A stretch of DNA of 64,000 nt, from assembly GCF_001458395.1 (NCBI RefSeq), contig NZ_CYSR01000030.1:62001-126000 (forward strand). The letters run 5' to 3'. Origin of the DNA: Leisingera aquaemixtae. GTDB taxonomy: Bacteria > Pseudomonadota > Alphaproteobacteria > Rhodobacterales > Rhodobacteraceae. How positions within the stretch are numbered: the stretch's first letter is position 1; each line of letters starts with the position of its first letter. The notes under the pieces were generated by a model. That model saw only the letters and a list, made by a program, of their open reading frames with translations, was not told the origin of the DNA and did not search any database. The translations under genes and the position numbers were made by a program. Shown here one piece after another: positions 50,038-52,333 of the stretch.

Positions 50038-50151
50038 GTGCCTGTTTTTTGAACCTGCCCGCTTTTGCCGAAATCTTTCAGGGTTCTTTTAGGAAGATTT
50101 TCTAATTTGTTTCCTGAATCGAGCGACCAGCAAGCGAAGGCAGGACAGATA

Positions 50152-50775
50152 ATGGTAACACCGGAGAACCCCAAGACTGCTCCGATCGGCAACGGGCAGC
50201 TGGACATCGGCCGCCTCACTCATGGCTACGAGGATCTGGACATCCAGGAGCAGGGCGGCGGGGCCAATGTGTCCATTGGCGCGTTCTGCAGCATCGGTAG
50301 GGGGATGCGGATCCTGCTGGATGCCTCGCCCATGCTGGACCGGATCACCGCCTTTCCCTTTGGCGAGGTTTTCAGCGAAGAACTGGGCGGCGCCGGGGTG
50401 CACGTGCCGCGGCAGAACGGCGGCGATGTTGTCATCGGCAACGACGTCTGGATCGGTGCCAATGCCACCGTGCTGGCCGGTGTGACCATCGGAAATGGCG
50501 CTGTCATCGGCCCAAACGCCACTGTCGCCAGCGATGTCGGCGCCTATGAGGTCTGGGCGGGCAACCCGGCCCAGCGGGTGCGCAAGCGGTTTGACGACGC
50601 GGTCTGCGAAAAACTGCAGGAGCTGCGCTGGTGGGATCTGCCGCTGCCGCTGATCCGGGAAATGGCACCGCTGCTGTCGGCGCAGCCGACGGTTGAACTG
50701 CTCGAAGGCCTGCAGGGCATCGTTGCCGATCTGGTGACCTTCACCGACCAAGGCGCGGACGAAAGCGCGGCCTGA
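50152..50775 (+). CDS. Hexapeptide-repeat acetyltransferase (CatB/XAT-like)
   Basis: A 207-residue left-handed beta-helix acyltransferase. It carries NVSIGAFCSIGRGMRILL, an acceptor loop including MLDRITAFPFGEVF, the coil core DVVIGNDVWIGANATVLAGVTIGNGAVIGPNATV, then VWAGNPAQRVRKRF and a helical tail (LRWWDLPLPLI), the order seen in Vat/CatB-type xenobiotic acetyltransferases. The ATG at 50152 with AGGACA upstream is preferred over the TTG at 50065. Substrate unknown; drug resistance should not be assumed. Confidence 0.85.
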   Translation: MVTPENPKTAPIGNGQLDIGRLTHGYEDLDIQEQGGGANVSIGAFCSIGRGMRILLDASPMLDRITAFPFGEVFSEELGGAGVHVPRQNGGDVVIGNDVWIGANATVLAGVTIGNGAVIGPNATVASDVGAYEVWAGNPAQRVRKRFDDAVCEKLQELRWWDLPLPLIREMAPLLSAQPTVELLEGLQGIVADLVTFTDQGADESAA

Positions 50776-50909
50776 GGCCGGGCAGGGCTTTGCCCGCGGC
50801 AAACCGGCTTGATGTGCGGCCCGGGACCGGTCAGGTCCCAGGGCCGTTAACTTTTTGGCAGAACTGGCGTAACATGGGCTGACTGCTTCCTGTTGGGAGG
50901 ACAGCTGCC

Positions 50910-51278
50910 ATGCCGCAAACCATCTATGAGAAATACGGCGGGTTCAGCGCCATCAGCCGCGTCGTGATGACATTTTACGAGATGGCGCTCGAGTCCGATC
51001 AGATCGGCGACTACTTCGCCGACGTCGACATGGCGCGGCTGATTGACCATCAGACCAAGTTCATCTCCTCGCTCCTGGGCGGGCCAGCCTCCTTCAGCGA
51101 CGAGCGGCTGGAGGCGGTGCACAGGGCGCTTGGCATCACCCATGAGGATTTCGACGAAATGGCGGCCCTGCTCAAGGAGGCACTGGAGCAGCACGGTCTG
51201 TCCGAACCGGATGTGCGCACCACGCTGACCGCGATCGAGGCCAAGCGAAACATCATCGTCACCAGGAACGCGGCATGA
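50910..51278 (+). CDS. Group I truncated hemoglobin
   Basis: A 122-residue 2-on-2 globin. It has IYEKYGGFSAISRVVMTFYEMAL (helix A/B with Tyr23 at the B10 position), a distal region around DHQTKFISSLLGGP and the proximal heme-ligand His71 in EAVHRALGITHEDFDEM, matching trHb group I. The length is typical for the family. The stop overlaps the start of the adenylyl-cyclase gene (ATGA), so the two proteins should be made together. O2, NO or CO binding is expected from the family; a sensory role is inferred from the pairing. Confidence 0.9.
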   Translation: MPQTIYEKYGGFSAISRVVMTFYEMALESDQIGDYFADVDMARLIDHQTKFISSLLGGPASFSDERLEAVHRALGITHEDFDEMAALLKEALEQHGLSEPDVRTTLTAIEAKRNIIVTRNAA

Positions 51279-52333
51279 GCATTGCCGCCATCAATGAGCA
51301 GCTGCTGCGCGCGATTGGCGTCGGGGTGGCGGTGGTGCGGGCCTCTGACCTTGGGTTTGTCTTTCACAATCAGCCCTTTGCGGAATGGTTCGGCACGCCG
51401 GGCGAGGGCGCGGCGCTGACCGATGCCATCGACGGGCTGGACCGCGAGGATCTGGGCCCGCTGTGCGAGGAGGGGCTGCGCTATTCGGCGGAGCTGAAGA
51501 TCAAGCGCAAGCGGCGCACGCTGGTCTTTGCCATCAACATCTCGCAGGCCAGCCATCTGGACGAGGCGCTCCTGGTGGTGGAATGCCAGAACATCACCCG
51601 CATCCGCGAACTGGAAAGCATGATCGACAGCTATTCCGCCATGGTTGAGCGCAACACCCGCGAACTGGAGCGCGAGAAGGAGCGGGTGGAGCGGCTGTTG
51701 CTGAACCTGATGCCGCGGCAGGTATATGAGGAGTTCAAAACCTTTGGCGTCGTCACCCCGCAGCTCTATCCCAAGGTCTCGGTGGTGATGCTGGATTTTG
51801 TGAATTTCACCGATTTCGCCTCCCGCACCGATCCGACGGTCACGCTGGGAGAGCTGAACGACATCTTCACCGCCTTCGACCGCATCGTCGAGCAATACGG
51901 CTGCGAGCGGATCAAGACCATTGGCGACGCGTATCTGGCGGTGGCCGGGATGCCGGAACCGATGCCCGAACACGCCACCGCCGTGGCCCATTGCGCCACC
52001 CGCTTCCTGCGTTATCTGGAGCGGCGCAATCAAAGCCACCAGCACAAATGGCAGGCGCGGATCGGGCTGGGCACCGGCTCCGCCGTGGGTTCGGTGGTGG
52101 GGATCCAGAAATACGTCTACGACGTGTTCGGCCCCGCGGTGAACCTGGCGTCCCGCCTGCAAGTCTTTGCCAATGCGATGAAAATCGTCGCCCCCGAAGA
52201 GATGAAGGCCGCGCTGTCGGAAGAATTCCGCGTCACCGACATCGGCCCCGAAGACATCAAGGGCATCGGCGAGGTCCATCTGATCAATGTCGGTGACGAG
52301 CTGAGCGCGCCGCAGCCCGCCAGCCGGTACTAA
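51275..52333 (+). CDS. PAS-domain class III adenylyl cyclase
   Basis: A 352-residue soluble protein. A PAS-like domain (about 8-108) is joined by a coiled coil (about 108-142, RELESMIDSYSAMVERNTRE...) to a class III cyclase domain (about 160-345). Catalytic residues are all present: metal Asp174 (MLDFVNFT) and Asp218 (KTIGDAY), purine-specifying Lys214 and Asp283 (YDVFG), transition-state Asn290 and Arg294 (VNLASR). Lys/Asp at the purine positions predict ATP, hence cAMP. No TM segment. It overlaps the globin gene by four bases and converges with a TetR gene 9 bases away. Confidence 0.92.
   Translation: MSIAAINEQLLRAIGVGVAVVRASDLGFVFHNQPFAEWFGTPGEGAALTDAIDGLDREDLGPLCEEGLRYSAELKIKRKRRTLVFAINISQASHLDEALLVVECQNITRIRELESMIDSYSAMVERNTRELEREKERVERLLLNLMPRQVYEEFKTFGVVTPQLYPKVSVVMLDFVNFTDFASRTDPTVTLGELNDIFTAFDRIVEQYGCERIKTIGDAYLAVAGMPEPMPEHATAVAHCATRFLRYLERRNQSHQHKWQARIGLGTGSAVGSVVGIQKYVYDVFGPAVNLASRLQVFANAMKIVAPEEMKAALSEEFRVTDIGPEDIKGIGEVHLINVGDELSAPQPASRY

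Follow-up and report, generated by a model that had tools for sequence, protein, structure and literature searches.

For many truncated hemoglobins (trHbs), the physiological role has yet to be settled. As described in the reports cited here, globin-coupled sensors consist of a 3/3 sensor globin joined to an output domain (PMC7082302, PMC12805357), within a family that also includes single-domain members (PMC7082302), and HemAC-Lm of Leishmania is an O2-sensing soluble adenylate cyclase (PMC12755159). Proteins of the H-NOX type regulate partner kinases or diguanylate cyclases, the corresponding genes usually being adjacent (PMC8738867), and fusions of trHb domains to a protein kinase or to nitrate reductase have been noted as well (PMC7082302).

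The window analyzed in this study, a stretch of 64,000 nucleotides from Leisingera aquaemixtae, harbors a gene for a group I trHb followed by a gene for a PAS-coiled coil-class III adenylyl cyclase. This pair resembles soluble guanylate cyclase (sGC) in the PAS-coiled coil-class III catalytic order, in an HNOBA-like linker, and in having a heme protein as its presumed input, but differs from it in that the presumed heme input is a separately encoded trHb, with no H-NOX on the cyclase chain, and in that residues K214 and D283 of the cyclase predict ATP rather than GTP as the substrate of what is presumably a homodimer. With globin-coupled sensors and HemAC-Lm, the pair is proposed to share the regulation of a signalling enzyme by a globin; the globin is, however, a 2/2 group I trHb provided in trans by one of two open reading frames (ORFs), and represents neither a one-chain fusion nor the 3/3 sensor lineage. 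Stand-alone H-NOX proteins and their partners provide a parallel in that a separate small heme protein is encoded beside a signalling enzyme, whereas the heme fold of the pair is that of Bac_globin and the partner is a predicted adenylyl cyclase. Finally, the fold, B10 Tyr, E11 Gln, and F8 His are shared with group I trHbs such as HbN, cyanobacterial GlbN, and Chlamydomonas THB1, from which the cyclase-linked globins differ in forming a deep clade of their own, with E10 His, a [TS]49-[KR]50 motif, and the cyclase partner; in THB1, THB2, and THB4, E10 is a Lys that serves as the sixth ligand (PMC7082302). Because no title or abstract opening listed in searches of the literature, which covered few subscription papers, described a trHb-cyclase gene pair or operon, the combination is taken to be a form of heme-coupled cyclase that is new as far as these searches reach, its parts being of known kinds.

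Layout and predicted products of the gene pair

The trHb and cyclase genes had been described in a first-pass annotation as overlapping by four bases, and this overlap is directly legible in the sequence (Table 1). Upstream of the pair, at positions 50065 to 50775, lies a gene for a hexapeptide-repeat acetyltransferase which resembles the Vat/CatB acetyltransferase group, although its scores do not reach the curated thresholds of the 25 NCBIfam models listed.

Table 1. Features of the trHb-cyclase locus (positions within the window)
Feature	Position	Strand	Basis
Group I truncated hemoglobin (trHb) gene, 122 aa	50910..51278	+	Pfam, PDB sequence match, AlphaFold2 model
PAS-coiled coil-class III adenylyl cyclase gene, 352 aa (predicted)	51275..52333	+	Pfam, predicted model
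ATGA start-stop overlap (4 bases) of trHb and cyclase genes	51275..51278	+	Read from sequence
GGGAGGA, ribosome-binding-like site, 8 bases 5' of globin ATG (putative)	50895..50901	+	Direct reading; inference
Globin E-helix signature D46-H47-Q48-T49-K50-F51 (E10 His, E11 Gln)	51045..51062	+	HbN alignment
Proximal (F8) His71 codon of globin	51120..51122	+	Invariant; role via HbN alignment
PAS domain of cyclase, residues about 10-106	51302..51592	+	Predicted secondary structure
Signalling helix/coiled coil, HNOBA-like, cyclase residues 108-145	51596..51709	+	Predicted structure, HNOBA in relatives
Class III catalytic domain, cyclase residues 162-334	51758..52276	+	Pfam; catalytic-residue alignment

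The globin matches Pfam Bac_globin (PF01152; E = 4.7e-18, above the cut-off) and has no HNOB match in Pfam, so that its gene represents a heme-protein gene outside the H-NOX family. Its closest solved structures are group I trHbs, HbN being first by both sequence and predicted fold, and Mycobacterium HbN is the top PDB fold match of the AlphaFold2 model (pLDDT 89.6; TM 0.88 by Foldseek). Alignment to HbN places Tyr23, His47, Gln48, and His71 at helix positions B10, E10, E11, and F8, respectively, and H71, Y23, and Q48 are invariant among the 105 linked globins. Based on the alignment and model, the HbN-related 2/2 fold, the F8 His, and the polar B10/E11 pocket assign the protein to the group I trHbs, and it would be expected to bind heme and a gaseous ligand. 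These pocket residues also weigh against a sensor role, as B10 Tyr and E11 Gln would suit a NO dioxygenase or O2-binding role too, and co-expression alone could therefore explain the operon. According to this alternative, which we consider unlikely, the globin is an enzyme (a NO dioxygenase or redox scavenger) that is co-expressed with the cyclase under the same stress without direct contact, a role in keeping with the invariance of B10 Tyr, E11 Gln, and F8 His and with the closest structure being that of HbN, for which high NO dioxygenase activity is reported (PMC7082302).

The downstream gene product matches Pfam Guanylate_cyc (PF00211; E = 2.9e-41, above the cut-off), and sub-cut-off matches to PAS_8 (residues 8 to 59) and HNOBA (residues 99 to 152), the latter being the domain which joins H-NOX to the catalytic part in sGC, were also obtained. 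Among 17 divergent relatives, HNOBA was detected in 14 (best E value, 2.7e-5) and PAS_8 in 6 at E <= 0.01. The predicted model (mean pLDDT 80.6) presents a PAS-like strand-helix order across residues 16 to 106, approximately, then a long helix (residues 108 to 145) and the catalytic fold. An N-terminal H-NOX was not apparent, as neither the window protein nor the 17 relatives returned an HNOB match in Pfam and the chain starts at the PAS domain.

The residues on which the first-pass annotation had based its expectation of an active adenylyl cyclase are in place when aligned with mammalian adenylyl cyclase, with D174 and D218 corresponding to the metal sites, K214 and D283 to the adenine-specificity sites, and N290 and R294 to the remaining catalytic sites. 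No variation is seen at D218 or D283 across 104 paired cyclases, whose other sites are also largely kept: D174 is retained in 102, and N290 and R294 are each retained in 98 (being altered in two, six, and six sequences, respectively), while the K214 position is occupied by Lys in 98 and by Arg in 6. The metal Asp pair, the Lys/Asp pair, and the Asn/Arg pair thus identify the protein, at the level of alignment, as a class III adenylyl cyclase, which probably forms a homodimer and probably produces cAMP. A separate observation concerns genome G862, which contains two globin-cyclase pairs (L162 and L183), with D174 replaced by Ser in one cyclase and D218 replaced by Gln in the other; both appear damaged and are perhaps pseudo-cyclases. 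The window cyclase shares its catalytic domain and preceding helix with the mycobacterial class III cyclase Rv1625c/Cya, which is membrane-anchored and is not known to have a globin partner.

Among the Foldseek matches listed from the PDB (50 of 1431), bacterial and mammalian cyclase domains were accompanied by sGC subunits, and it was the latter that aligned across the PAS, helix, and catalytic domain (362 to 397 columns). VIA-align was applied to Foldseek's own matches (the 50 rows listed, such that the absence of a family from this set excludes nothing), and here sGC chains covered the model from residues 1-4 to residues 341-344, with a whole-chain rmsd of about 11 to 23 A (about 11 to 24 A over both comparisons), which is high because domain angles differ; as a comparison of models, the match denotes a common order of folds and not a common mechanism. 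Owing to this end-to-end alignment, the cyclase appears to resemble an sGC from which the H-NOX is missing and whose front is overlapped by a globin gene. The first-pass annotation had likened the pair to a split globin-coupled sensor, a comparison that calls for refinement in that the likeness is to an sGC accompanied by a separate trHb more than to a divided fusion of sensor globin and cyclase.

The PAS domain of the cyclase deserves separate consideration, since Cys104, which is kept in 89 of the 104 paired cyclases, means that this domain may sense something itself. In a further alternative, which we regard as improbable, the globin acts as a buffer or protector that keeps NO or O2 from, or brings it to, a PAS-cyclase engaged in sensing something else, and the PAS fold could indeed hold another ligand. 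Across the 104 paired cyclases, however, no PAS His or Cys is conserved in more than 90% of sequences as a candidate metal ligand, and a freely diffusing scavenger would, in our judgement, require no strict linkage to a partner. Heme held by the cyclase PAS was also considered as a possibility, and the same lack of a His or Cys above 90% conservation, with Cys104 at 89/104, argues against it.

Conservation and distribution of the pair

Conservation of the gene neighborhood had been set beforehand as a test of the first-pass reading, and the pair was found far beyond the genus, i.e., in Rhodobacterales, Hyphomicrobiales, and Sphingomonadales. In a scan of GTDB contigs with the cyclase alignment, the best 80 of 151 relatives possess, without exception (80/80), a trHb gene directly upstream on the same strand, globin and cyclase being specified by separate ORFs in every locus. 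The spacing between the two genes is -4 in 70 of these loci, +4 in 6, +3 in 2, -11 in 1, and +7 in 1. Named records among these loci include Leisingera, Ruegeria, Tritonibacter, Roseibium, Stappia, Hoeflea, and Nitratireductor, which by organism name belong to the Rhodobacterales and Hyphomicrobiales.

Broader genome samples returned the same association. In a family sample of 198 genomes from 198 genera, the cyclase was present in 15, the trHb in the same 15, and neither in the remaining 183, with all 16 cyclase copies adjoining a globin gene (G862 holds two). Within a class sample of 385 alphaproteobacterial genomes, 17 cyclases were identified at E <= 1e-50 and a trHb gene adjoins each of them (17/17); G027, in which the frames of both globin and cyclase are broken, is counted among these pairs, and 4 of the 17 cyclase stretches contain at least one stop. 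Fisher's test yielded p values of about 8e-23 (family sample) and 1e-27 (class sample), figures that treat genomes as independent, which is not quite true, and that in the class sample count globins of at least 120 bits (a threshold chosen after the scores were known) plus the G027 fragment. A phylum sample of 398 genomes produced 11 matches, 3 of which are full-length, alphaproteobacterial, and paired; the other 8 (4 from the same class and 4 from other classes) start at or beyond model position 97, and no globin was found in the stretch examined. Among 72,556 plasmid records, a single match was obtained at E <= 1e-60, namely, pLA3 of Novosphingobium pentaromativorans (Sphingomonadales), on which the pair is present and on which RefSeq names the genes singly as group 1 truncated hemoglobin and adenylate/guanylate cyclase domain-containing protein. 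Pairing holds down to 41% cyclase identity, and no unpaired full-length cyclase was encountered among the matches examined in the GTDB, class, family, phylum, and plasmid sets. As conservation extends well past the genus and none of the full-length cyclase matches examined stands alone, the part of the split-sensor comparison that implied a functional unit is supported; a direct signalling link between globin and cyclase would be a further step. A globin with 68% identity to that of the window (P0097) is assigned in its record to a gammaproteobacterium, Microbulbifer sp. S227A, which may reflect transfer or a mislabelled or mixed assembly.

The genes surrounding the pair are far less constant. 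Within 4-kb flanks of the 80 GTDB loci, the neighbors seen in the window recur to various extents (metA in 59, tetR and PPK2 in 56, the hydrolase in 49, rplM and rpsI in 24, the GntR gene in 19, and the hexapeptide gene in 10), and 18 of the 80 loci contain none of these eight neighbors yet retain the pair. A conserved third gene was sought and rejected, the next commonest families in 24 selected distant loci being present in only 9, 8, and 7 of them; in these loci a crude choice of ORFs failed to include the cyclase in 4 cases and the globin in 5, and most neighbors are without annotation. The distance matrices of globin and cyclase are strongly correlated (r = 0.90 for 104 pairs; maximum of 300 shuffles, 0.21), and partial correlations with a neighbor gene controlled for, in 54 to 55 loci, amount to 0.64 (PPK2), 0.83 (metA), and 0.68 (tetR). 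These 104 pairs were derived from 139 pairs by de-duplication on cyclase sequence, and the 105 linked globins comprise these plus the second G862 copy; the sequences are related and hence non-independent. Together, the distribution of neighbors and the distance correlation indicate that the globin and cyclase genes travel and diverge together, and that the conserved unit is the pair rather than the surrounding region.

This pattern bears on two of the alternatives. Common ancestry, or block transfer of a chance operon without functional meaning, would be compatible with a patchy distribution (15 of the 198 family genera) and with the single plasmid copy, which render transfer as a block plausible; however, the pair is retained at 41% cyclase identity while the flanks turn over, and the inferred spacing ranges from -11 to +134 bases over 139 loci (some representing one place counted twice), and we consider this explanation very improbable. 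As regards an enzymatic globin, the two NAD(P)/FAD-dependent oxidoreductase genes located just upstream of the pair on pLA3 are what such an enzyme might need. Against this, no third gene is common to the sampled clades, in which most neighbors are without annotation, and a reductase is therefore not a constant companion; moreover, 80/80 adjacency and co-occurrence of 15/15 versus 0/183 exceed, in our judgement, what is usual for co-expression. On pLA3, the pair is directly followed by a gene for an ATP-binding protein (possibly a sensor kinase) and then by one for a response regulator.

Upstream stretches of 160 bases, 81 in number, were also inspected for motifs: neither TTGAT-N4-ATCAA nor TGTGA-N6-TCACA has an exact match in any of them, and TTG-N8-CAA has one match in each of 3, results which say little on regulation.

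Cyclase-linked and unlinked globins

A tree was constructed from 61 trHb rows, comprising 47 linked globins, 7 free-standing unlinked globins, and 7 domains from CheA-like proteins, the second globin copy of G093 being absent from it. All 47 linked rows, together with the unlinked globins of genomes G039 and G310, fall on one side of a branch with 100/100 support, long branches being flagged, that of G310 among them. In the class sample, G039 and G310 are the two genomes that carry a globin of this clade (at least 120 bits) without a cyclase at E <= 1e-50, and G093 carries a second, unpaired copy at 105.8 bits.

The E-helix motif D-H-Q-[TS]-[KR]-F is present in all 105 linked globins. H47 and Q48 are also present in the three unlinked clade members, in which positions 49-50 are instead AQ, IE, and AI and F12 differs, such that [TS]49-[KR]50 is found in 105/105 linked globins and in 0/3 of the unlinked clade members. 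A further 11 group I-like trHbs from the class sample (5 free-standing and 6 from CheA-like proteins) have Lys, Met, or Arg at the position of H47. It would, therefore, appear that H47 is a heme-pocket feature of the clade, and that positions 49-50 are a feature of the partnership, a reading drawn from related sequences and three losses only. For a purely enzymatic globin, the E10 His, as opposed to the Lys, Met, or Arg of the other 11 trHbs, and the manner in which [TS]49-[KR]50 tracks linkage are not readily accommodated.

The surroundings of the three unlinked genes differ. The G039 globin (L137, 22-1410; same place, L181) adjoins a Rieske-type oxygenase gene and the second copy of G093 (L180, 2855-3520) adjoins a dienelactone-hydrolase-like gene, both neighbors being named by eye from the translation. 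In G310 (L182, 3626-4437), the globin gene overlaps by 4 bases an ORF encoding a 146-aa PAS/coiled-coil-like product with no cyclase domain. This ORF was considered as a sign of globin-PAS communication and set aside, and is not used as evidence because its homology to the cyclase PAS is weak (PAS_8, E = 0.08; hhalign probability 1.3%, E = 0.04).

Group I-like trHb domains also occur within six CheA-like histidine kinases of the class sample. Three have the order Hpt - trHb - H-kinase_dim - HATPase - CheW (L143, 967-3357; L145, 1033-3351; L150, 1-2361), two show Hpt - trHb - H-kinase_dim before being ended by the contig edge (L146, 2-1471; L147, 1057-2427), and one (L149, 1-2976) contains a pair of trHb domains along with kinase, CheW, and receiver domains. 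The seven trHb domains of this type group together in the same tree (94/96), and none of the paper titles listed in a literature search concerned such proteins. These proteins provide a precedent for a trHb as a signalling input.

Proposed mechanism and implications

The side-by-side occurrence of these overlapping genes across many alphaproteobacteria suggests that the trHb is a detachable gas sensor of the cyclase. It is proposed, and we hold it to be the probable explanation, that the trHb represents a dedicated heme-sensor subunit acting in trans, and that the output comes from the PAS-coiled coil-cyclase, which is probably homodimeric and probably forms cAMP. The initiating event would be a change at the heme, i.e., binding of O2, NO, or CO or a change in redox state, and may displace the E10 His47 from the iron. 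The signal would then pass, via contact between the globin and the PAS domain or helix, to the coiled coil, which would relay it to the catalytic domains of the dimer, much as a signal from H-NOX is relayed in sGC, raising or lowering their activity. A more specific version, in which the trHb of a split heme-sensing cyclase docks on the PAS/helix through the E-helix face bearing [TS]49-[KR]50 and is switched by binding of the E10 His to the iron, seems to us evenly poised between right and wrong. Counted against a sensor function are the cyclase's own PAS domain, the altered catalytic residues in some pairs, the three clade globins without a cyclase, and the eight partial cyclase matches which share only the helix-catalytic part and showed no globin in the stretch examined.

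Domain matches in the genome from which the window derives comprise nine cNMP-binding, one H-NOX, eleven class III cyclase, and two trHb matches, and the nine cNMP-binding matches could represent readers of the predicted cAMP signal. If the split-cyclase reading is correct, the trHb would be a genuine receptor subunit in signal transduction, serving an sGC-like adenylyl cyclase, and the pair would constitute an alphaproteobacterial route from gas to cAMP which is distinct from both globin-coupled sensors and H-NOX. The constant partnership with a cyclic-nucleotide enzyme makes a sensor role for a trHb directly testable with two purified proteins, and, if true, the proposal would mean that a heme protein with an unrelated fold, acting in trans, is able to drive a core of the sGC type.
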